Below, piece by piece: positions 14,756 through 37,910 of a stretch of DNA of 45,483 nt. Each line of letters starts with the position of its first letter. The stretch's first letter is position 1. The notes beneath the pieces were generated by a model. It saw only the letters and a list, made by a program, of their open reading frames with translations. It was not told the DNA's origin and did not search any database. Both the position numbers and the translations under genes were made by a program. The stretch is from a virus, in the IMG/VR virus record IMGVR_UViG_3300021559_000016, positions 1 through 45,483 of that record, one strand, 5' to 3'.

Positions 14756-16726
14756 GTGGATCACACCCAGCGGCAATTCTTTCACGCGGTGCTCGCGCAC
14801 AGCGGTCTTCCCTGTCTCGGCACGAAACGTCCGGGGTCAGCGGGAGGCGTGCGTCACCAGGTCACCGACGATGTGGATGCCTTCTGCGATTTGCTGGAGA
14901 CCACGAACTTCGCGCATCTGGACGGCTATTTCTGTATCTCTACGCTCGTACAAGCGAAGGTAGTAGAGCGCGACGCTATCAAGACACGGACGCAGAGCAA
15001 CGCGTCGCACACCCGCTGCTTCGTGCTGGACATCGACATCCACGCGCCCGGCGACAAGGACCACAACCCGGCCCGGTACTACGAGACGCAGGACGAAGGC
15101 CGCGCCGGTCTGGCTGCCATGGTCGACGCGTTCCAGATGCCCCAGCCGATCGTGGTCAACTCAGGCTACGGGCTGCATGTCTACTGGCCAATGGTGGAGG
15201 GTGTACCTAGCGCTGAGTGGAAGTCGGTGGCGGATCGGTTCAAGCGAGCGCTGCAGATACCTTTCCCCCAGCTCGTGGGCGATGGCAGCCGCGTCGCGGA
15301 TAGCGCGGGTCTACTGCGCATACCAGGCACGTTCAACCTCAAGCACGGCAAGAGCGTGCCGGTAACCATTGAGCAATGGTCGGACGAAGTGCTGGACTTT
15401 GGCGAGTTCGCTGAACAGATGCGTCGACAAGGGGGCGCGGCGCTCGGGCCGTCCAGTCCAAAGATGGCCTCACTGGTGCCCAGCATCACGCTGGAGCTGG
15501 CCCGCGAAGAGATGGAGCCCGTAGCGCTCACCGCGCTGGTCAAGAACTGCAACTGGGTCGCCCGCTATCTGAAGGGCATGGACAGCGCTGACGAGCCCGC
15601 GTGGTACGCGATGCTGGGGCTGGCACCGTTCGTGACTCACACGGCGCAAGGCAAGACGATCAATGGCGCACAGGTCGCTCATCTCTTCTCGCGCAAGCAC
15701 CCGGCATATACCCCATTCGATACTGAGCGCAAATACCAGCAAGCCTCCGTCGGCCAGACCGGCCCCACTACTTGCATCCGCTTTCAAGGCATCGACCGTA
15801 CCGGCTGCGAGGGCTGCCCCTTCCTGGGCGACGTCAAGTCACCGGCTGCGGCGGCGCGCTTATCACGCCCCATCACCGAGCCCAAAGCCGTCGAGACCTC
15901 GGTACGTGATGAAGCCGGTGTGGTCACGCAAGCGACGGTACATATCCCCGTGCCGCCAGCACCGTACTTCCGCGGGGAAGATGGTGGCGTGTTTGTCCGC
16001 AGCAAAAAGCAGGAAGAGGATGGCAGCTGGACCAGCTTCATTCAGAAGGTCTATGACTACGACATCTATCCGACCCGGCGCTACCGCACCGAGAACATTG
16101 AAACCGAGTCGCTGGAGATCCAGCTGCACTTGCCGCGCGATGGTATGCGCACCTTCAAGATGCCAACCGAGCTGCTGGCCGAGCAGAAGAAACTCAGTAC
16201 CTATCTGACCGGCCACGGCGTTGTCGCCGAGCATGGCAGCGGCGTCCTCATTGCCAAATACATGGTGACCTATGTGCGAGACATGCAGATGAACCGAGCC
16301 GCTGAAATCGAATTCTCCCGCTTCGGATGGCGCGACATTCTCTCCGACCATCCGAAGTTCATCGTGGGCAACGGCTATATCAGCAAGGACGCCCCACTCA
16401 ACGCGGGAACTTTCGCGCCCTACTTGCGGCAGGCAGCGACCTCCGTGGCCTGCGCCGGTGACCTGGAGGAGTGGAAGAAGGCATTCAACGTCTACCAGGG
16501 GATGACCGGTAGCGAGCCGTTCCAGATGTGCATTCTCCTGGGCTTCGCCGCCCCCCTGCTGGCGCTCACCGAGTACCGTGGCGTACTGTTCAACATGGTT
16601 GGCCATGGTGGCTCGGGCAAGTCCACGGCGCTGAAGATCATGGCCTCGGTATGGGGGCAGCCCAACGAGGCGCGCGTCTCCATCAAGGATACCGAGATCG
16701 CCGTGGAGAACATGATGGGTACCTGA
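14756..16726 (+). CDS. AEP primase-DUF927 helicase, N-terminal part (frameshifted)
   Basis: A 656-residue product with GTG start. Residues 85-200 match archaeo-eukaryotic-type primases: LDIDIH (D92, D94), SGYGLHVYW (136-144) and LLRIPGTFNLKHG. A Cys cluster (C, then CEGC) near residue 340 may bind zinc. A DUF927 domain follows, ending in the P-loop GHGGSGKST (616-624). The frame then stops at a TGA (16724-16726), just before the expected Walker B. The C-terminal part continues in another frame. If the break is real, this product could still make primers but would lack a complete ATPase. Confidence 0.85.
   Translation: MDHTQRQFFHAVLAHSGLPCLGTKRPGSAGGVRHQVTDDVDAFCDLLETTNFAHLDGYFCISTLVQAKVVERDAIKTRTQSNASHTRCFVLDIDIHAPGDKDHNPARYYETQDEGRAGLAAMVDAFQMPQPIVVNSGYGLHVYWPMVEGVPSAEWKSVADRFKRALQIPFPQLVGDGSRVADSAGLLRIPGTFNLKHGKSVPVTIEQWSDEVLDFGEFAEQMRRQGGAALGPSSPKMASLVPSITLELAREEMEPVALTALVKNCNWVARYLKGMDSADEPAWYAMLGLAPFVTHTAQGKTINGAQVAHLFSRKHPAYTPFDTERKYQQASVGQTGPTTCIRFQGIDRTGCEGCPFLGDVKSPAAAARLSRPITEPKAVETSVRDEAGVVTQATVHIPVPPAPYFRGEDGGVFVRSKKQEEDGSWTSFIQKVYDYDIYPTRRYRTENIETESLEIQLHLPRDGMRTFKMPTELLAEQKKLSTYLTGHGVVAEHGSGVLIAKYMVTYVRDMQMNRAAEIEFSRFGWRDILSDHPKFIVGNGYISKDAPLNAGTFAPYLRQAATSVACAGDLEEWKKAFNVYQGMTGSEPFQMCILLGFAAPLLALTEYRGVLFNMVGHGGSGKSTALKIMASVWGQPNEARVSIKDTEIAVENMMGT
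16720..16726 (+). other. one-base frameshift splitting the primase-helicase
   Basis: Reading GGT ACC TGA here gives a stop. Re-reading the last C of ACC (16723) yields CTG AAC TGC ATC, which continues the protein as MGT-LNCIPVAFDE, the expected path into Walker B. The simplest explanation is loss of one C from a CCC run, as a true mutation or a sequencing/assembly error. No canonical X-XXY-YYZ slippery sequence or clear downstream pseudoknot was seen, so programmed frameshifting is less likely. Confidence 0.75.
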
Positions 16727-17682
16727 ACTGCATCCCCGTCGCCTTCGATGAGTTGACCAAGTGGGACCCGGACAAGCTGGGCAAGTTCGTGCTCAACCTC
16801 ACCGGCGGCCGGGGCAAGATGCGCGCCGGACGTAATGGCGCCAACATCACCAACAACACCGAGTGGGACACCATCGTTGCCTGCTCGTCCAACACCAGCG
16901 TCTATACGCGCCTGGCTGAAGCGCGCACCGGCTACACCGCCGAGGCCATGCGTGTTTACGAGGTTAGCGTCGAGAAGGGTGATCCCCAGCACAAGCCACG
17001 CATGGACGCTGCCTCTGCCATCCTGCTGAAGAACTACGGCTTAGCCGGGCGCAAGTACATGGAGTGGTTGATTAAGAATCTCCTACCCGTACAGCAGGCG
17101 GTAGAGAAGGCCATGGCCCAGCTGGACGCTGCAGGACGTGCTACTGATGAGCGCTTCTGGGTGGCTCTGCTAGCGGCGCTGCGGGTCAGTGGGAAGATCA
17201 CCAAGCAGATGGGCCTGCACGACTATGATATTGATCACCTGATCGCATGGGCCACGGGGCAGACTGTCGAGGCACGCGTCGAGATCCAAGCCTCCCACTC
17301 CTCTCCGCTCGCGGTGCTGGCCGACTACTTCAACGATACGCTGGACGGCACGCTATACTTCCGCGAAGGCGCTGTCAACCTCGATGGGCCGTCGACCTTC
17401 GTGCGAAGTGTAAAGAACCGCATTGAGGCCACCGGCGGCGTAATCCACACGGCCTACATTTCCGTCGCATCCATCCGCGCCTATTGCGCACCCAAGAACA
17501 TCGACATGGCCTGGCTCAAGCGTGGCTTGATGGATTCCGGCGTGATGGCTAGCGGCGAGATTACTAAACGACTGGCGACCGGGACGTCGCTGCCCAATAC
17601 CCCCACACGAGCCTGGACGATCGATATGGGGCATGCGCTACTGAACGACGTGGCGGTATTGCCGCCGGAGGAGGGAGCGTGA
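16723..17682 (+). CDS. AEP primase-DUF927 helicase, C-terminal part
   Basis: A 319-residue continuation of the primase-helicase in the -1 frame. It begins with the Walker B strand (VAFDE at 16738-16752) and continues through DUF927-type conserved stretches such as GRGKMRAGRNG and the sensor-like VACSSN segment. A C-terminal helical region (17280-17682) probably binds DNA or partners. There is no convincing start codon or ribosome site at the junction, which argues for one ancestral gene of about 975 codons. It ends in a GTGA overlap with the next gene. Confidence 0.8.
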   Translation: MNCIPVAFDELTKWDPDKLGKFVLNLTGGRGKMRAGRNGANITNNTEWDTIVACSSNTSVYTRLAEARTGYTAEAMRVYEVSVEKGDPQHKPRMDAASAILLKNYGLAGRKYMEWLIKNLLPVQQAVEKAMAQLDAAGRATDERFWVALLAALRVSGKITKQMGLHDYDIDHLIAWATGQTVEARVEIQASHSSPLAVLADYFNDTLDGTLYFREGAVNLDGPSTFVRSVKNRIEATGGVIHTAYISVASIRAYCAPKNIDMAWLKRGLMDSGVMASGEITKRLATGTSLPNTPTRAWTIDMGHALLNDVAVLPPEEGA

Positions 17683-18389: not shown

Positions 18390-18682
18390 AAGCAGAATCA
18401 AGTCCTGGCTACGACGACCTTTGGCTTTACTTTGGCCTATCTCGGGCGAGTTGGCTAACAATGCCGCGGGCCTTCATGCACGAGATGCCTGACGAATGGC
18501 AAGCGAAGATGGCCGCGCTACTTTGGGAGTGGCAGAAAACATGGAAGTGGCCCGATGAATTAGGCACTCCCTATGTTTCGCAACGAGTAAACGGGCGGTT
18601 CACTTCGTTCCCCGAATATGTATTGAACTACCGGCACCCAAAAATAAAATACATCGACTCGTGCCGAGTACCTACCGAATAG
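18386..18682 (+). CDS. conserved phage protein, last gene of the early operon
   Basis: A 98-residue protein. DLWLYFGLSRASWLTMPR followed by MHEMPDEWQAKMA is a signature I recognise from small phage and prophage proteins, which have no assigned function and are often found near morphogenesis or DnaB-type genes. Its 3' end overlaps the 3' end of the giant late gene on the opposite strand by 11 bases. Confidence 0.7.
   Translation: MKAESSPGYDDLWLYFGLSRASWLTMPRAFMHEMPDEWQAKMAALLWEWQKTWKWPDELGTPYVSQRVNGRFTSFPEYVLNYRHPKIKYIDSCRVPTE
18639..18669 (-). terminator. candidate terminator of the late operon
   Basis: Immediately after the stop of the giant gene (minus strand), ACTCG-GCA-CGAGT forms a 5-bp stem with a 3-base loop (18657-18669). 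It is followed five bases later by a T-rich tract (complement of 18639-18651). The stem is short, so this is a weak candidate. Confidence 0.35.
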
Positions 18683-21600
18683 TTTTCTCCGCCGCATCCG
18701 TCGCCGTACGCAACGCCGAGTCGAGCTGCTTGCGTACGTACTGTTTTCTCTCCGGCCCATCCTTGGAAGCGACTAGTGCCTTGAGCCCGGCCTGGTAGGT
18801 CTTTTTCGCCGCCTCGATCTGGTTCAAGGCCACGAGCTTCTGCTGGGCATCGGGGTTGGTGGATAGCCACTGCTGGCCAGCGGCAGCATACTCGGGTGAA
18901 CCCTTGGGGCCAGCCTGCAGCCGCACATGGTTGAGCTGCTGCAGCGAAGGGGTCAGCTCGTCGATCACCTTGTACATGTGGCTGGAGTCGTAATACGGCG
19001 CGCCCTGGTAGGTCAGCCGCAGCTCGGCGCTGAGGGCATTGTTCGGAAGCCCTTGCGCTTCGCGGCTACTCTGCCCCAGTGTCGCACGCATGAGGTCAGT
19101 AGGCGCCGTACCCATGTAGCTTTCGGACATGAACTTCAGCGTCTCGGGGAAGAAGTCCGCGCCGGTGTGCTCGTTCAGCGACTTGGCCAGATCCTTCCAC
19201 ATCTCCGGCGTATTGGTCTTGCCCTGGTCGGAGGCGAACTCCTGAGTGTTGGGATGCGTCGTAGTGATCGACTGACCGAAGTCGTTGACGTTGTGTGCGA
19301 TGTCCGCCGCTGGCTGCAGCACGGTCGGGGTAACGGCCCCCATGCCGATGCCCAATAGGTGTGCAAGTAACCCCGAGTGCTCCGGCGTCGCCAAGGGCTC
19401 CATCAGCGGGATGTTCCGCCCCAGCACTTTGCCGTAGGCGGCTGCCGCGTCAGAAGCACTGATATCACCCGCCATGACCGCCGCCATCAGCGTACCGGGA
19501 CCGGTGAGTATCTGATGCGCGCCTAAGCCCGCAGGGTAGACGTACGGTGTGCCGGTGTTGTACCCAATGAAGCCTTTGGTCACCAGGTCCTCGGGGTTAC
19601 CCTCGGCGATACTGGCCATGTTGTAGTGGCCGCTCTCGTCCTTGCCCAGCATCTCGCGATCGAAGTAGTACCGCAGGAAGGCGTAGCCGGACATGGACCC
19701 GACCAGCATACCCACCTTGCCCCAGTCCACGGAGGTATGCACCGTGCGTCCCAAGATATTCACCGGCCGCAGCCCTTCGGGATGGCGGAACGCGCGTATA
19801 AGGTTGTCGGTCGCTGTTGCGCCGATGCGGAAGAAGCTGTGGTAGCCGTTGAACGCCCGCCCCGCCGTACCCCGCTGCTGCAGGTCGAAAGCTTGCTTGG
19901 TCAGGGCTGCGGCATCGGCATCACTCATGCCCTTCTTGACCAGTGCGCGGAAGAGGCCCACGCTGGGGATGTTCTCTGCGACGTCCGCCAGACCACGCTC
20001 ATAGCGCAGCACCGCTCGGCCGCCTTTGACCAGCGGGTTAGACTGTTCACGCCGGGCTGCCGAGACAAGGGCGTTCTTGCTCTCGTGCATGGTCAGCTCT
20101 TGCGTGAAGGCGGTGGAGGCACCGGCCTCGTTCATGCGCTTGACCCAGCCAGCCATGCTGTCGGGGTTGGCCTTGGCCAGAGCGCGCACGCCCTCGGTAT
20201 CATGTTGGATCGTCTTCGCCAGCCACGCACCCGTACCCTCGTGAAAGACGCCGCTGAAGGTATTGGCATATGCCTCGACCATGTGTCCGGCGAAGTCCAG
20301 CGGGGTGCGCGAGTTCTGCAGCGCGTACATGATCGGCTTCTCCAGCATCAGACGTGGCAGTAGCGTAGCCGCTGTCCAGACCGGGTTGGCGATGGTGCGT
20401 GCTTGGGAGAGAAAATTGGTGGCGTGAGTGATGTAGCGTGTCGGCTCGCCCAGGCCCACGGCGCGTGTCAGAGGATGCGTCAAGGTCTCGACACCTGAAG
20501 CGATAGCATCGACCCACGGAATGTCCCGCAGATCCCAGTTCGTGCCGATCGCCCGCATACCGTTATACACGTCGCTGGTCTCGGGGAAGTTCATGACGTA
20601 GTGCATGCGCCCTTCGTGGTGCACGACGTTACGCCCACCGGTGGGTAGCTGGTCGACATGCTTGCCGGTGCGCACGTTGTCGTAGCCCTCACGCGGCGTA
20701 CCCGTCCACGACTCGACCGTGGTATTCATGATCTCGTGCTTGGCGACAGTCGGTGCCATCTCGGGACGGGCTTTGGCCAGCGCCTGCAGAGCCTTCTTGT
20801 TGGCCGAGTGAGCTTCCAGCACACTGTTGGTGAACTCGTGCCGGGCGACGTTACGCGCCGCGGCCTCCATCTGCTGGAAAGGCGAGAGCAGTCCATTCGC
20901 TGCCATCGTCGCACGGCCTTCTGCCGTGTTGAGCTGCTTGGCGTTGGCCGAGGCCATAAGCTTGGCACCTCGATCAGATAGCTCGGTGACCAGGGGGTCG
21001 ATCTCATTCTTGCCGTCGGAGGCGTAGCCGGTTAGCGTGCTCCACGTATTGTTGTCGAACGCCTGGGCGAACGGGTCGTCTGCTGCCACGTCGCCGCTCT
21101 GCAGCCGGCGCTGATAGATATTCTTGTTCAACTCGCCGTACAGTGGGTCAAACCGCTTGGAGGCTTCGGCTGTGCCGTTCTTGGCGTATTCCGTCAGCTT
21201 GCGCACGCGACGGTCGTACTGAGTCTCGCCCGTGTCGGAGTGGGCGATGCCCTTGGTGGAGCGAGCCCACTCGGCGAATGGCTGGCTCGCATGCTGTTTG
21301 ACCAGCGCGGTCAGCTGCGCCTCACCCTCCTTGCTCGGTAGCTCGCGGCGCGTGATCTTGCCGAGGATTTTCTGGCGGATAGCCTCCTGACCGTTCTCCA
21401 GCGCCACGTTGCGACGATACTCACTTGGCCACTGATGCGTCATCTCCGATCGCACGATGCGGTATTCGCCCAACTTCTGCATGGCCTTGAGCGGGTCCAT
21501 GTCCACCTCGTGACTGAACTGCACGAAGGCGTTGACGATGGGCTTCATGAACTTGTCGGCGTCCTGCTGTACTAGCTCACCGGCCGTGCCGATCATGCGC

Positions 21601-24600
21601 CGCGCCTGCAGGGTCAGGTTGTGCTTGACGTCGGTAGCCAGACCGAAATTGCGCAGTAACCCCTCACGCAGGTCGTCGAACGAGGCATGGCTAGCCACCA
21701 GTACCTCACGAGCTTTACGCAGCACGGTGCGCGTGCGCTGCACGCCATCGGACTCGGGGCCATCCAACACGAAGTTGTGCAGCCGCTCTGCCTCCATGAC
21801 AGGAGAGAACCCCTCAGGCTGGCCGGCATACCGCTCCTTAGTCAACTCGTAGTCACGTAAGAAGCGCTGTGTACCGGACTCCTGCGTACCCATGATGTGC
21901 TGCAAGCCGTCGATGATGGCCTGTTTGTTAGGGTTCGCACCGAACAGCGAACGGATCTGGTCGATGAATCCCTTGAGCCACTGGTGCGCCTGCGCGAGCA
22001 GGCCTTTGCCCTTGAACCCATGCTCCAGCATATCCGTGGCGTGCACCGCCCAGTATTCGCTCGGATTGACCAGCGAGTAGAGTTCGCCGATGCGCTTGGA
22101 GGCTACAGCCTTGGTGTCACGCAAGTGCAGTAGTTCTTCTTTGGCGCCTTGGGCATATAGGGCTCTTTCGCTGGCAGTCTTGGCCTTGAGCCCGTTCTGC
22201 AGGTACTCGAACATGCCCTGTTCCGACGGGGCAGCACCGGCAGCCAGACGACTGATCTCCGCCTCTCTCGCCTTGAGGATGGCATCGCGAATCGGGGGCG
22301 GCATCAGCGACTCGGCCGCATGCATCAGTTCGTGCACCGCCGTGGAGGATGTCATGTCCTTGCGATCGACTAGCTCCAGCACGCGGGACACTGCACCAAA
22401 CCGGCCGCCGTAGTTCACCCCTTCCGTCAGCGGGGTCTTGGACACGTCGTTAATGGTTCGGATTAGCGCCGGGTTCTTGCCCAGCACCCATGCAAGAAAG
22501 TCGGTCGCCTTCTGGTGCGGCTCGCTATCAGGGAACAGCTTCCTCAGCTTGGCAATGGTCTCGGCCGCGCGCGCTCGATCACTCTTGAGCCCTGTGGGCA
22601 TTTCGTCTGCCGCGCGCGCGATAGCTTCCGCCGAACGGCCTAGCTCTGTCGTGGGAGCTTCGCCGCGGGAGACGTCCAGCAGATCTTCCTTCCCCGCATC
22701 GACGGCTTTGGTTGCCTCGGTATCGCGCCCTGCCGCTTCGCGCGGGGTCTCACGCCCGGCTTGGCGCAGCGTTTTAGCCTCTTCGAGCGTGATGGTGTCG
22801 TCGCTACGCATCTCCTTGATGCGAGCGTGCAGGTCTTCCGGCATGCCATTCTGGGCACGCTCCACCAAAGTGCGCACATCCGCCAGATCGGCAGGCGTAA
22901 CTTTGCCCTCAAGCGTCTGGCCTACAACATCAGCGTTTGCGCTTGAGGCGGTTGGCTCCAGCGGGTTTGCTTCCACTGGAGCCGGGGCTTTTTTTGCCGC
23001 GACACCTTCTTTGGAAAGCGGCGAGACTTTCCCCTCCAGTGGCTTGGTATCCCCGAGGTCCACGTTGGGCTGACTGTCCAGGTCCGAAGGGATGTCTGCG
23101 TTGGGATGCCGGCCAGCGATACCCGCCTTCTTGATTGCCGCCTTCAGGGCGTCCTGATATTTGATCGGGTCGACGTCGTACTTCTGCCGGATGAAGTGGT
23201 TCTCCGCCGCCGTGGCCGCGTCGTGCGCATCGTGGTAGACCGCGCCCATCTCCTTCATCAGGGGCCACTCGACCCGCTCGTGAAGGGCAACGGCTTCATG
23301 GACGTTGATGCGCCGGCCATCCACGTTGACGTACTTCGGCATGCGCTGGTCGATGTAGATCGTATTACCGTCCTGACTCACGCCGCCAGCCAGGTGTACA
23401 TCCTTGGTCGTAACCACGGGGGTCTTGCTATTGAGCGGTTCGCCCGGCGAGCGCGGCTGACCTAGATCGTTGACCTTATTGACGCCTGGCGCTTCCACTT
23501 TCGCCGTGGCAGCCTGTACGTCGCCTGGTACTGTCTCACTCTTGGTCGCGCTCGGTATCGAAGCCACCTCCCTCTGGTAGGCGTGGTATTTCTCTTCCAA
23601 GGTCATCTTGGCGAGTTTCGCCGCCGGATAGGCGCTACGCACGCCCTTGCGAACCTTAGTCAGGGCCTCATCCATTGCCGTATGCAGCTGCCTACTCTGC
23701 AGATCGCCGGACTGTTCTGCCGTCTGGTCAAGCGGGTCTTTCGGCGTGTTGTCCACCGGGCTACCAGCCTGCTCACCACCCATGGCTTCGCCTGCCAGGG
23801 TCTGCGCCAGCTCAGGGTTAAGCGGCGTGCCTGATTCTTGCCCCGGCACTTCGGCTACAGGGGCCGCTGACTCGCCCTGCGGTGCCGCCTGCGGTGCTTC
23901 CCCGGGTACGCTGGGAGCTTGCCCTTGGACATCGGGCTGTCCCGTCTCGGCGATGGCCGGAGCGGGCGTAGCAGTAGCCGCCTGTCGCCCATGGGCTAGC
24001 AGCTCGGGCAGACCTTCTTGCGGGGCCACCGTGTGTAGCCGGGTAGCCACTGCCTCGATCGCATCGTGTTGCTGTACCGGGGACATTTTGGACCAGTCAG
24101 CACCAGATTCACTAGCTGCGTTCTGCGCGACTGCGGTCGCCTGCTGCAGCAATTCCTGTGGAGACTTCGCAGCCTTGGCTGCTTGGATGTAGTCACGATC
24201 GGCCCCAGCTGCCGCTGCCGCTTCTTTCACTTGGGCATGCTGAGCCTCAGGGATGCCAGCGCCGGTAGAGACAGTGGGCAGCTGCACATCGCTAGGGGCA
24301 TTGATCGGATTACCTGCGGCATCAGTCAGGGGCTTACCTGCCACATCGACCGCTTGGACTGGTGGATTTGCGCCGGCAGGGGTAGCGGCGGTTGGAGCAC
24401 CAGATTCGGCCGCCGCCCGCGCGGCTACTCGTGCATTTACTTGATGGCCCAGCTCACCTAGCGCCGTTCCCAGCACGGTCTGCAATCCTACGTCCTTCAG
24501 GGATAGCGGATTGTTCTTCGCGTCGACCACGTTGCTGCCGATATTCTGGCCCGCGCCGATAGCAGCGTTTGCAAGACCGGACTTGAGCAGGCGCTTGCCC

Positions 24601-25475
24601 ACTGTGCCTGCGACTCCACCCCCCACACCAAGACCTGCGAGATTCGCTGCCGTATTGATACCCAGGATGCCTTCTTGTTGGGCAACTGACCCACCCGCGT
24701 CACGTTCATTACCCACCGCGCTCATGGTTGGCAGCACGCCGAGCGAGGCGACCGCGCCAGGCAATTGACCTACGAAGGCAGCAGTGGGAGATCGAGAAGC
24801 GGCTTCTTCCTGTAGCTTCTTGCCCTGCGCCGTCATAGCGTTAACGGTAGGGTCTGTCGCCCGGAAGTAGGCATCGGCCATGTTGCTCTGCGGCGTGCCG
24901 GGGATGAGATTATTGTTGATCGCATCGCCCAGTACAGCGACGCCACCGCCGACATAGCGCGCTGCTTCGCCTAGACCTTGCTCTGTCGCGCCCAGCGCGG
25001 ATTTGCCAAGATCTGCCAAGCTCTCCCCGAAACCGCCTTTGCTCGCCGTCTCTGCGGCTTGCTTGTTATACTGCGCGGCGAAGGGCGCGAAGTTGGCGTC
25101 GTCGGCTGCTTTCCACGAAGCCTCGATGCCTTTGCTGTAGGCTCCCTTTCGCGTATACGCCTCACGCATGGCCGGTAGGTGCTGCGTAAACGAGGTGTCC
25201 TTGAGCTGCTGTAGCTGCTCCGGTGTCAGATGCTTTCCGCCATTGGCCTTCTCGGCAGCAGCTACAGCATCGGGGAATGCAGGAAGTGCAGGCTCGGCGG
25301 TAGAAGCCACTGGCGGCATGGGACGCAGCGCAGTAGGAACTGTCGCCGGAGCAGCACTTGCCCCTTCGCCTGGAAATTGCCCGGTGCGTAGGTAGCGCTC
25401 ATAGAGACTTTCCCCACCCGGCGGGGCTGCAGTACCGGGGTCCATGACTGAGCCAGTGTTGGGCGTATCCATCAT
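18672..25475 (-). CDS. giant polyvalent virion/ejection-type protein with zincin domain
   Basis: A 2267-residue protein in an ATGA overlap with the gene before. Residues 1-700 are Ala/Pro/Gln-rich, with a Gly-rich hydrophobic stretch near 230-330. A domain around 690-800 contains IYIDQRMPKYV and HEAVALHERVE (H726). At 1048-1052 lies HELMH, followed by NPSEYWAVH (E1140); together they fit a gluzincin-type zinc metallopeptidase. The C-terminal half is mainly helical and ends in a charged segment like the large polyvalent-protein modules of podovirus ejection proteins. I infer that it is packaged in the head and sent into the host. The size excludes an ordinary tape measure reading given the other genes. 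Confidence 0.8.
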   Translation of the reverse strand: MMDTPNTGSVMDPGTAAPPGGESLYERYLRTGQFPGEGASAAPATVPTALRPMPPVASTAEPALPAFPDAVAAAEKANGGKHLTPEQLQQLKDTSFTQHLPAMREAYTRKGAYSKGIEASWKAADDANFAPFAAQYNKQAAETASKGGFGESLADLGKSALGATEQGLGEAARYVGGGVAVLGDAINNNLIPGTPQSNMADAYFRATDPTVNAMTAQGKKLQEEAASRSPTAAFVGQLPGAVASLGVLPTMSAVGNERDAGGSVAQQEGILGINTAANLAGLGVGGGVAGTVGKRLLKSGLANAAIGAGQNIGSNVVDAKNNPLSLKDVGLQTVLGTALGELGHQVNARVAARAAAESGAPTAATPAGANPPVQAVDVAGKPLTDAAGNPINAPSDVQLPTVSTGAGIPEAQHAQVKEAAAAAGADRDYIQAAKAAKSPQELLQQATAVAQNAASESGADWSKMSPVQQHDAIEAVATRLHTVAPQEGLPELLAHGRQAATATPAPAIAETGQPDVQGQAPSVPGEAPQAAPQGESAAPVAEVPGQESGTPLNPELAQTLAGEAMGGEQAGSPVDNTPKDPLDQTAEQSGDLQSRQLHTAMDEALTKVRKGVRSAYPAAKLAKMTLEEKYHAYQREVASIPSATKSETVPGDVQAATAKVEAPGVNKVNDLGQPRSPGEPLNSKTPVVTTKDVHLAGGVSQDGNTIYIDQRMPKYVNVDGRRINVHEAVALHERVEWPLMKEMGAVYHDAHDAATAAENHFIRQKYDVDPIKYQDALKAAIKKAGIAGRHPNADIPSDLDSQPNVDLGDTKPLEGKVSPLSKEGVAAKKAPAPVEANPLEPTASSANADVVGQTLEGKVTPADLADVRTLVERAQNGMPEDLHARIKEMRSDDTITLEEAKTLRQAGRETPREAAGRDTEATKAVDAGKEDLLDVSRGEAPTTELGRSAEAIARAADEMPTGLKSDRARAAETIAKLRKLFPDSEPHQKATDFLAWVLGKNPALIRTINDVSKTPLTEGVNYGGRFGAVSRVLELVDRKDMTSSTAVHELMHAAESLMPPPIRDAILKAREAEISRLAAGAAPSEQGMFEYLQNGLKAKTASERALYAQGAKEELLHLRDTKAVASKRIGELYSLVNPSEYWAVHATDMLEHGFKGKGLLAQAHQWLKGFIDQIRSLFGANPNKQAIIDGLQHIMGTQESGTQRFLRDYELTKERYAGQPEGFSPVMEAERLHNFVLDGPESDGVQRTRTVLRKAREVLVASHASFDDLREGLLRNFGLATDVKHNLTLQARRMIGTAGELVQQDADKFMKPIVNAFVQFSHEVDMDPLKAMQKLGEYRIVRSEMTHQWPSEYRRNVALENGQEAIRQKILGKITRRELPSKEGEAQLTALVKQHASQPFAEWARSTKGIAHSDTGETQYDRRVRKLTEYAKNGTAEASKRFDPLYGELNKNIYQRRLQSGDVAADDPFAQAFDNNTWSTLTGYASDGKNEIDPLVTELSDRGAKLMASANAKQLNTAEGRATMAANGLLSPFQQMEAAARNVARHEFTNSVLEAHSANKKALQALAKARPEMAPTVAKHEIMNTTVESWTGTPREGYDNVRTGKHVDQLPTGGRNVVHHEGRMHYVMNFPETSDVYNGMRAIGTNWDLRDIPWVDAIASGVETLTHPLTRAVGLGEPTRYITHATNFLSQARTIANPVWTAATLLPRLMLEKPIMYALQNSRTPLDFAGHMVEAYANTFSGVFHEGTGAWLAKTIQHDTEGVRALAKANPDSMAGWVKRMNEAGASTAFTQELTMHESKNALVSAARREQSNPLVKGGRAVLRYERGLADVAENIPSVGLFRALVKKGMSDADAAALTKQAFDLQQRGTAGRAFNGYHSFFRIGATATDNLIRAFRHPEGLRPVNILGRTVHTSVDWGKVGMLVGSMSGYAFLRYYFDREMLGKDESGHYNMASIAEGNPEDLVTKGFIGYNTGTPYVYPAGLGAHQILTGPGTLMAAVMAGDISASDAAAAYGKVLGRNIPLMEPLATPEHSGLLAHLLGIGMGAVTPTVLQPAADIAHNVNDFGQSITTTHPNTQEFASDQGKTNTPEMWKDLAKSLNEHTGADFFPETLKFMSESYMGTAPTDLMRATLGQSSREAQGLPNNALSAELRLTYQGAPYYDSSHMYKVIDELTPSLQQLNHVRLQAGPKGSPEYAAAGQQWLSTNPDAQQKLVALNQIEAAKKTYQAGLKALVASKDGPERKQYVRKQLDSALRTATDAAEKTIR
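18705..18753 (+). terminator. candidate terminator of the early operon
   Basis: CGTACGCAA (18705-18713) and TTGCGTACG (18730-18738) form a perfect 9-bp stem with a 16-base loop, about 20 bases past the last early gene. TACTGTTTTCTC follows and could serve as the U-tract. The site lies inside the 3' end of the opposing giant gene. The long loop and imperfect T-run keep confidence moderate. Confidence 0.4.
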
Positions 25476-25819
25476 GCGTTGTCCAGGAGGGTGCCGAGGG
25501 CTTTACGCAGGGCGCTCTTAGGCAAGGACGCCAGCGTATTGGGGATCACTTTGCGCGCGATGAGGCTGAAAGACTCAATCGGGTTGTCCGGCGCGACGAT
25601 GTACAGCGAGCGGTGCTGATCTGCCGCCTGTCGTAGCGAGCCAGGAAAAGTCATCTCGATCTGCTCGCTGCCGCCGTAGTACGTGAGGAAGGGGTTGTCC
25701 TCCGTCACTGTCTCGACCGCCTCATCGTAGGCGACGTTGTACTTCAGCAGCTCGTTGACCAGCGAGTTACCGCTATCCTTGGGATTGACTCTGGCCAGAG
25801 TAGTGTCGGAGGTACGCAT
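25472..25819 (-). CDS. hypothetical virion-associated protein
   Basis: A 115-residue protein between the lysozyme-like gene and the giant gene. Its start overlaps the upstream gene by 47 bases and its stop is in an ATGA overlap with the giant gene, so production of the three is probably linked. It has a helical N-terminus, an acidic middle and a basic C-terminal part. No family recognised. A virion or chaperone role is inferred from position. Confidence 0.6.
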   Translation of the reverse strand: MRTSDTTLARVNPKDSGNSLVNELLKYNVAYDEAVETVTEDNPFLTYYGGSEQIEMTFPGSLRQAADQHRSLYIVAPDNPIESFSLIARKVIPNTLASLPKSALRKALGTLLDNA

Positions 25820-26528
25820 CGAGTTGCCCCTGCAGTGGTGTGTTGGCGACCGTGGCCTTGACGTAATCGGCTACCGGTGCGACGGTTTGCCCGTTGGGTA
25901 GTTTATAGGGTTGCGACCACGAAGCGGGGTTGTTCGCCGCCGCGGGGAGGTAATGATGCGCGATCGCTTTGAACGCGTCACCGCCGTAATGCTGCAGGCT
26001 GCGTGCTATGTCTTCCTGCGCCCTTTGATCCTGTATAGCCCGAGGTGCGAGAGCGGCACTACGGTAGCCACCATAGCCAGCCCACGTCGGATCAGTGTAC
26101 TGATATGCACCCGACGCCGTGTTACCTGGCCGGTCATGGTTGACTGCCGCATAGTTACCTCCAGACTCATGGTGACGGATCAAGCTGGCCACCGTCGACG
26201 CATCAATCGGGGGCGCTGAAGAGGCTTGCGGTTCAGGTGCGGTGGCCTGGGCAACGGTTGAGCCAATAGCTCCAATAGCGCCCGGCGCGCTGGCAGCGAC
26301 TTTCGCTCCCGCGTGAATACTGCTCTTGGCCTGTTCCCCTAGCTGTTTAGCATAGGCCACAGCTTGCCGAAGATTACCCATGGGGTCTTGCCCCTGCGCA
26401 GGATCGACAGGAGCCGTGCCTGGCGGGGGCGTGCTCTGGGCGCCCAGATTATCCTGTGCTATCGCCCCGCCGGCGGTAGGTGTACCTAAACCATACTGCC
26501 TCAGGATCTGGTCGATGGAGGAGTCCAT
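25773..26528 (-). CDS. virion-associated lysozyme/transglycosylase-like protein
   Basis: A 251-residue protein. Residues 1-105 are Pro/Ala/Gln-rich and flexible. From about 112, LIRHHESGGNY places E121 as the likely catalytic Glu, followed by ASGAYQYTDPTW (the G-x-x-Q-type strand) and a later AIAHHY helix, the order seen in lysozyme-fold transglycosylases. Such virion enzymes cut peptidoglycan locally when DNA is ejected. It sits among internal protein genes rather than in the lysis cassette, which supports that role. Its start overlaps the previous stop by one base. Confidence 0.82.
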   Translation of the reverse strand: MDSSIDQILRQYGLGTPTAGGAIAQDNLGAQSTPPPGTAPVDPAQGQDPMGNLRQAVAYAKQLGEQAKSSIHAGAKVAASAPGAIGAIGSTVAQATAPEPQASSAPPIDASTVASLIRHHESGGNYAAVNHDRPGNTASGAYQYTDPTWAGYGGYRSAALAPRAIQDQRAQEDIARSLQHYGGDAFKAIAHHYLPAAANNPASWSQPYKLPNGQTVAPVADYVKATVANTPLQGQLDAYLRHYSGQSQSQG

Positions 26529-36974: not shown

Positions 36975-37910
36975 TTACGAGAACGTGCAGTAGAGATGGA
37001 CCAGCGCGTCCGGGTACAGCACCTTGAAGCCATATACGGTCAGACCCTGGTAGTAGCGATCCCAGTCATCCTTGTCTTCGATGACGCGGGTCTGTTCGAT
37101 CTGCGCGGCAAAGGCCGTGGCGTTCTTCACGCCGGCCACGATGTGGTAGGCCAGCAGACTGACGCTTGGATCGATCGCCTGCGGGATCAGGTTCGACTTC
37201 ATGATGGTCCAACCCATCACTTCGTCCGGCAGCTTGCCGTTGGTCAGCGGCGACCAGCTCAAGCCAGTCAAGTATGCGGCGCGAAGGTCGCTATTGCGCA
37301 GTGCAGTGATGCCGGCCGGCGGCAGAGTGATGAAGCGGTTGTCGGTCGGGGCATTCTGCTCATCCAGCACCTGATGCGCCTGGGCAAACACCTGTGTGAT
37401 ATTGGCACTGGTGATCGAGACCGGAGCGCCGACCGTACCCATGTTGAGATTCTGCGACTTGACGCCTGCGGTGGGGCCTTGGTTGAAGGGGTCAACCGAG
37501 GTGTACATCTGGGTCATCAACGGGCCATCAATCGCAATGGCCAGCTCACGGCCGGCGGACTGCAGGAACCGTTCCTTCCAGGTCGGGAAGTTCTGGATCT
37601 GGAACTCATCCACCTGCGACATGGCGATCGAGAAGTCTTTCGACTGGTCAATGGTCATGGTGATCGGGTCGGACTCGATCGTGTCGTGCTGGATCGGCTG
37701 GCCCTTGATCGCGTCACGGACCCGCACACGCGGCTCACGCCAGAAGGTAATCTGATCGCCGCCCTTCTCCAGCTCACCGGTGTATTCGGTCGAGGAGATT
37801 TCACCGTAGATGGTGCTGGCGTAGAAGCGCTCCAGCAAATCCATCGAGAACAACGGGGTAATGAGATTGCCAGAATACTGCGGGTAACCTGCGGCGGCTG
37901 GGATGGCCAT
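36975..37910 (-). CDS. major capsid protein
   Basis: A 311-residue protein, taken as the major capsid protein. It follows the scaffold-like gene and precedes the repeat protein and terminator, the usual order. Features include an N-terminal helix (PLFSMDLLERFYAS), a central segment with strands and helices (for example QSKDFSIAMSQVDEFQ), a helix-forming NITQVFAQAHQVLDEQNAP followed by RFITLPP, a pattern seen in P22/N4-like coats, and a C-terminal beta end (GLTVYGFKVLYPDALVHLYC). The fold is presumably HK97-type. Length is normal for the group. Confidence 0.85.
   Translation of the reverse strand: MAIPAAAGYPQYSGNLITPLFSMDLLERFYASTIYGEISSTEYTGELEKGGDQITFWREPRVRVRDAIKGQPIQHDTIESDPITMTIDQSKDFSIAMSQVDEFQIQNFPTWKERFLQSAGRELAIAIDGPLMTQMYTSVDPFNQGPTAGVKSQNLNMGTVGAPVSITSANITQVFAQAHQVLDEQNAPTDNRFITLPPAGITALRNSDLRAAYLTGLSWSPLTNGKLPDEVMGWTIMKSNLIPQAIDPSVSLLAYHIVAGVKNATAFAAQIEQTRVIEDKDDWDRYYQGLTVYGFKVLYPDALVHLYCTFS

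Follow-up and report, generated by a model that had tools for sequence, protein, structure and literature searches.

A zincin-like metallopeptidase domain of a clade new to Pfam, NCBIfam and PHROG in a giant phage-type polyvalent protein

Introduction

Zincins are the commonest domain of the polyvalent proteins of phages and plasmids, and Iyer et al. (2017, PMC5512222) distinguish 12 clades of these MPTases, in a text that does not mention Erwinia phages. They argue for a role of such domains mainly in freeing parts of the polyvalent protein in which they reside, and cleavage of host proteins is also proposed (PMC5512222). P1 DdrB carries an MPTase at its C-terminus and undergoes processing before it is packaged, whereas the N4 virion RNA polymerase (vRNAP) is packaged unprocessed (PMC5512222), which counts against self-processing. 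Furthermore, the plasmid protein ArdC kept its antirestriction function in the metal-ligand mutant E229A (PMC7213743), which counts against a role based on peptidase activity.

Here we describe a giant protein of an uncultivated phage, encoded in a stretch of viral DNA of 45,483 nucleotides (IMG/VR record IMGVR_UViG_3300021559_000016, positions 1 to 45,483), which we call the window. The sequence-only reading of this DNA had proposed a gluzincin-like metalloprotease within the protein and had named it the best candidate for an undescribed activity. The second part of this proposal is not upheld, because an activity of this kind is already known: the domain type is the commonest one in polyvalent proteins, and both self-processing and host cleavage have been proposed for it (PMC5512222).

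Results

Position and relatives of the giant gene

The giant gene lies at the end of a minus-strand gene block spanning about 45 kb to 18.7 kb, and its ATG start overlaps the upstream stop codon by 4 nt. The features of this region are:

18672..25475, minus strand: giant polyvalent-type protein gene, 2267 aa, closing the late minus-strand block, with the relatives L006 and L007 and an LPD38 domain
19077..19397, minus strand: LPD38 domain (Pfam: PF18857), residues 2027-2133, E 2.3e-9, above the Pfam cut-off
25472..25819, minus strand: 115-aa ORF directly upstream of the giant gene with the 4-nt overlap, no family match
25773..26528, minus strand: 251-aa neighbour protein with a transglycosylase-like domain (Pfam: PF06737), from a family match

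The order of genes on this one strand is capsid, structural and internal virion protein families, the transglycosylase-domain protein and the giant protein. The 251-aa neighbour is a probable co-ejected wall hydrolase. Two full-length relatives of the giant protein come from viral contigs, with 56% (L006) and 42% (L007) identity, and the ORFs of L006 have closely similar sizes and the same order as those of the window. LPD38 is the sole Pfam match of the giant protein, as it is in both of these relatives. Scanning six related giant proteins, we found LPD38 in all six as well as in the window; four of the six also have ddrB-ParB, ART-PolyVal or a strawberry-notch (SNO)-type helicase. Iyer et al. 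(2017, PMC5512222) list LPD38 and ddrB-ParB as polyvalent domains confined to phages.

With a length of 2267 aa, an LPD domain and a minus-strand position that has the late virion genes upstream, the giant gene product is a phage-type polyvalent protein of the class of Iyer et al. 2017. Judged by gene order and relatives, it is probably a virion component that enters the host along with the DNA. In podovirus JC1, 51 unique peptides of the DarB-like giant protein gp69, whose gene has a comparable position, were detected in purified virions (PMC9144972).

Elsewhere in the window, the major capsid protein (36975-37910, minus strand) is similar, at 24-29% identity, to its counterparts in Rhizobium phages RHph_TM and in HMO-2011-like marine podoviruses. 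Two plus-strand ORFs (14756-16726 and 16528-17682) overlap in different frames and match residues 67-661 and 664-855 of PHROG 25314, which is primase/helicase-like; the split indicates a frameshift, either programmed or a sequencing error.

A conserved, predicted metal-site motif within the giant protein

The features of the putative metallopeptidase region are:

21840..22586, minus strand: zincin-like metallopeptidase domain, residues 964-1212, from profile, alignment and family model
22320..22334, minus strand: HELMH, residues 1048-1052, with predicted zinc ligands H1048 and H1052 and predicted general base E1049
22311..22313, minus strand: E1055, invariant, third residue past the second His
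22077..22079, minus strand: Y1133, invariant, seven residues ahead of E1140, candidate transition-state residue
22041..22067, minus strand: NPSEYWAVH, residues 1137-1145
22056-22058, minus strand: E1140, predicted third zinc ligand, in NPSEYWAVH

The positions that the sequence-only reading had given for HELMH (1048-1052) and for E1140 within NPSEYWAVH (1137-1145) of a 2267-aa protein are correct, and they lie on the minus strand, which that reading had not named. HELMH is the only HExxH of the giant protein. Taken alone it is weak evidence, because 0.09 such motifs are expected from the amino-acid composition, and this figure is also what can be said for a motif that arose by chance.

We scanned 2.9 million viral contigs with a six-sequence alignment of the domain and the patterns SEYWAV[NH] and W.L..NP, with no HExxH seed. 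This first scan yielded 78 loci, and HExxH is kept in 77 of the 77 loci that reach the site. Over the whole set, HExxH is followed by the S/T-E-[FY]-[WF] motif at a spacing of 74-110 residues. Seven residues (H1048, E1049, H1052, E1055, Y1133, E1140 and A1143) are invariant over 99 aligned family members. Moreover, a held-out profile was built from 96 sequences with the window and its relatives L006 and L007 left out. It detects residues 967-1211 of the window protein with 135 bits and an E-value of 4.6e-41, whereas the top score among 300 shuffles is 3 bits. Given this family conservation and the held-out match we rejected a chance motif, to which we assign a negligible probability. A real domain had thus been picked out by a reading, made with no tools, of one HExxH in a 2267-residue frame.

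Distribution of the zincin clade

In a second scan, with a larger alignment, the zincin clade was found to be encoded in at least 245 viral-contig stretches, and 80 of the 245 were kept. Since one of the two patterns used was HExxH, this set lends the motif no independent support. It contains four members that fall outside the search pattern for the second motif, yet have both HExxH and [ST]E[FY]W.

Among 50,697 GenBank phage records the only carriers are the Erwinia phages Pavtok, PEp14 and Stean, whose clade proteins are annotated as DarB-like antirestriction protein, methylase or transglycosylase; JC1 is not among the clade matches in this set. Wider relatives with the same zincin have LPD38 alongside ddrB-ParB, ART-PolyVal or a strawberry-notch-type helicase. 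One of them (L054:1995-11561) combines the zincin, ART-PolyVal and LPD38 in a single protein, which also has weak GNAT and L,D-transpeptidase-like matches. In Pasteurella phage Pmp11 (L004, 25867-32838), a 2343-residue frame whose sole annotation is misc_feature is similar to the window protein over 1796-2120; it carries a different HExxH of its own (WHELAHRG).

Searches of Pfam, NCBIfam and PHROG with the zincin domain returned no credible family. PF18818 (MPTase-PolyVal) had no match in the window domain or protein in the Pfam scans, nor in 15 related records, the latter in a search without a positive control. The whole giant protein matched no sequence of a solved structure, and the domain profile found only ribosomal and chemoreceptor chains there, with E-values of 0.04 or worse. 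What is defined here is a large zincin clade that is absent from all three of the searched catalogues, though at least 245 viral-contig stretches encode it.

Predicted fold of the domain

We predicted the structure with AlphaFold for the window's own domain and for L128, a central family member. The model of the window domain, from 58 alignment rows, has a pLDDT of 84.4 and a pTM of 0.81 (pLDDT 73.5-84.4 across five models). Ahead of the HExxH helix it is all-helical and is least sure at residues 54-65; the invariant Glu lies in helix 178-193. Compared with solved structures, it matched no zincin. The L128 model, from 99 rows, reaches a pLDDT of 93.0 and a pTM of 0.90, with all five models at 91-93. 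It consists of a helix (32-44), three strands (53-57, 68-71 and 76-80), the HExxH helix (88-100) and a helix (169-186) with Glu 171. The helix and three strands before the HExxH helix, which are absent from the window's own model, give the L128 model the order of the polyvalent MPTase core in Iyer et al. (PMC5512222), in which a helix and three strands are followed by the helix with HExxH and then by the helix with the Glu.

Foldseek against the PDB gave no match below E 0.001 for either model. When the Foldseek candidates for the L128 model were aligned with VIA-align, the first 21 rows were all the catalytic domain of anthrax lethal factor, with Z 6.0-7.9, where Z under 8 is suggestive only; these alignments cover 143-155 residues at 4.1-4.7 A. 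They are followed by IrrE with Z 5.5 and by Spartan, PepO and M1 peptidases with Z 4-4.6. In a library of predicted virus structures the L128 model is matched best, at TM 0.82, by a phage protein that is uncharacterised; further down, several matches are annotated as large polyvalent proteins.

The window model, all-helical at pLDDT 84 and with no zincin among its structure matches, could be read as an all-helical metal-binding or structural domain that has HExxH in a helix and is not a zincin. We regard this as very improbable. Over its whole length the window domain can be aligned with family members that are modelled with three strands (pLDDT 93), and its own model is weakest at 54-65, where the strands should lie. 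Because of this end-to-end alignment we take the L128 model as the better guide. HExxH with its catalytic Glu is present in the sequence, and E1140, or its equivalent Glu 171 in L128, lies on a downstream helix in the respective model. We conclude that residues ~964-1212 very probably have a zincin fold. Structure prediction and a search against zincin folds, which had been suggested for the gluzincin-like site, thus gave a divided answer. Invariance over 99 sequences, the zincin core of the L128 model and its lethal-factor match favour the site, whereas the window's own model, all-helical and matching no zincin, does not. Given the fold, an active peptidase is likely.

The HExVE module

The giant protein holds a further conserved segment:

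23031..23402, minus strand: hyperconserved HExVE module, residues 692-815, with an uncharacterised solo homologue encoded on bacterial chromosomes

Identity to L007 is 82-87% over residues 661-780 and 73% over 781-840, compared with mostly 27-57% in the remaining protein. The module (692-815) is homologous to a solo bacterial protein (E 1.3e-19) of roughly 180-320 aa, found at 54 genome loci, chiefly in Dyella and Rhodanobacter and also in Hyphomicrobiales and others. Sampling 78 genomes from that bacterial family, we found the solo protein in 24. In Dyella dinghuensis the solo gene is chromosomal and lies near pheST and a chemoreceptor gene.

Pfam, NCBIfam and PHROG gave no match to the HExVE module, and a search of GenBank phages and of viral contigs recovered nothing beyond the two near relatives and a single solo protein. 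The module may be more novel than the zincin domain. Its conserved residues, HExVEK...AH...E, might make up a metal site. One could then picture two candidate metal-dependent modules in the protein, namely the zincin and a captured bacterial protein whose metal site would have the second His and the distal Glu exchanged relative to a zincin. In this picture the phage brings in both a host-protein mimic and the protease that releases it; we consider this combined scheme unlikely.

Discussion

Proposed role of the zincin domain

Our best explanation, with a probability of roughly 0.6, is that the giant gene encodes a virion-delivered polyvalent protein whose zincin metallopeptidase would mainly process the giant protein itself. 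H1048, H1052 and E1140 would bind zinc, E1049 would activate water and Y1133 would probably stabilise the transition state. A copy could cut itself (in cis) or another copy, at the packaging stage or when the phage enters the cell. The cuts would detach the C-terminal part with LPD38 from the N-terminal ejection part and from the HExVE module. For an active zincin, we favour the giant protein as substrate over a host target, though by no means firmly.

The zincin might instead act in trans, as a delivered protease that cuts a host defence or regulatory protein early in infection. The closest solved fold is that of an effector protease that cuts host proteins, the same protein holds a module homologous to a host chromosomal protein, and Iyer et al. 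(PMC5512222) keep this option open. However, a trans-acting zincin has no known target, and the domain is common to giant proteins with very different partners, which fits general processing better. We consider action in trans a possible but clearly less probable alternative.

It is rather unlikely, though somewhat less so than the remaining objections to the fold itself, that the zincin fold is kept only for structure, metal-dependent folding or binding of DNA or protein, with peptidase activity absent or dispensable. Such a role would accord with the functional ArdC E229A mutant (PMC7213743) and with N4 vRNAP, which requires its MPTase region for packaging, yet is uncleaved (PMC5512222). Against it, the catalytic base and the Tyr, besides the metal ligands, are invariant in 99 diverged sequences.

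We therefore rank self-processing first, host cleavage second and a silent fold third, because DdrB is processed, N4 vRNAP is uncut and the ArdC mutant is functional. Since three cultured Erwinia phages carry the clade, whether the zincin cuts its own protein, a host protein or nothing is testable with an isolate.

Comparison with known systems

The closest solved fold is the catalytic domain of anthrax lethal factor, an ATLF-like zincin (Z 6.0-7.9). In lethal factor the Tyr and the third Glu ligand are seven residues apart, as in the window domain. Unlike the giant protein, lethal factor is a toxin and not a virion protein, and at ~10% identity there is no sequence homology.

N4 vRNAP is likewise a giant virion protein, and its MPTase has HELVH with a Glu 82 residues on in NEFMAWG, compared with 92 residues in the window; in contrast to the window protein, the MPTase is fused to an RNA polymerase. 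As a sequence relative N4 vRNAP was rejected: BLASTP gave no match and the profile similarity is weak, with hhalign probabilities of 20% and 12% and only HExxH in register. P1 DdrB, which is processed and packaged, likewise has an HExxH domain, located at its C-terminus and followed further on by a Glu within TEVFS. It differs in its length of 996 aa, its ParB-like N-terminus and its different clade, and its profile match is weak (E 0.025 in a small set). ArdC of plasmid R388 is also a polyvalent-type protein with a zincin domain, but its spacing from H201 to E229 is short compared with the 92 residues in the window, it has an ssDNA-binding ArdC-N domain, and its peptidase site is dispensable in antirestriction (PMC7213743).

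The giant 'DarB-like antirestriction' proteins of Pavtok, PEp14 and Stean belong to the same clade as the window domain and have the same invariant residues. Their domains are 27-29% identical to the window domain and 46-47% to L128. These proteins have ~5000 aa with methylase and helicase regions, which the window protein lacks.

With the polyvalent MPTases of Iyer et al. (2017, PMC5512222), the window protein and its relatives share the giant late multidomain phage protein, HExxH with a Glu on the next conserved helix, LPD38 and, in the L128 model, the three-stranded core and, in relatives, the ddrB-ParB, ART or helicase partners. Among these polyvalent MPTase domains, the clade may be set apart by its signature HExxHxxE...Yx6E and by a helical insert between both motifs.
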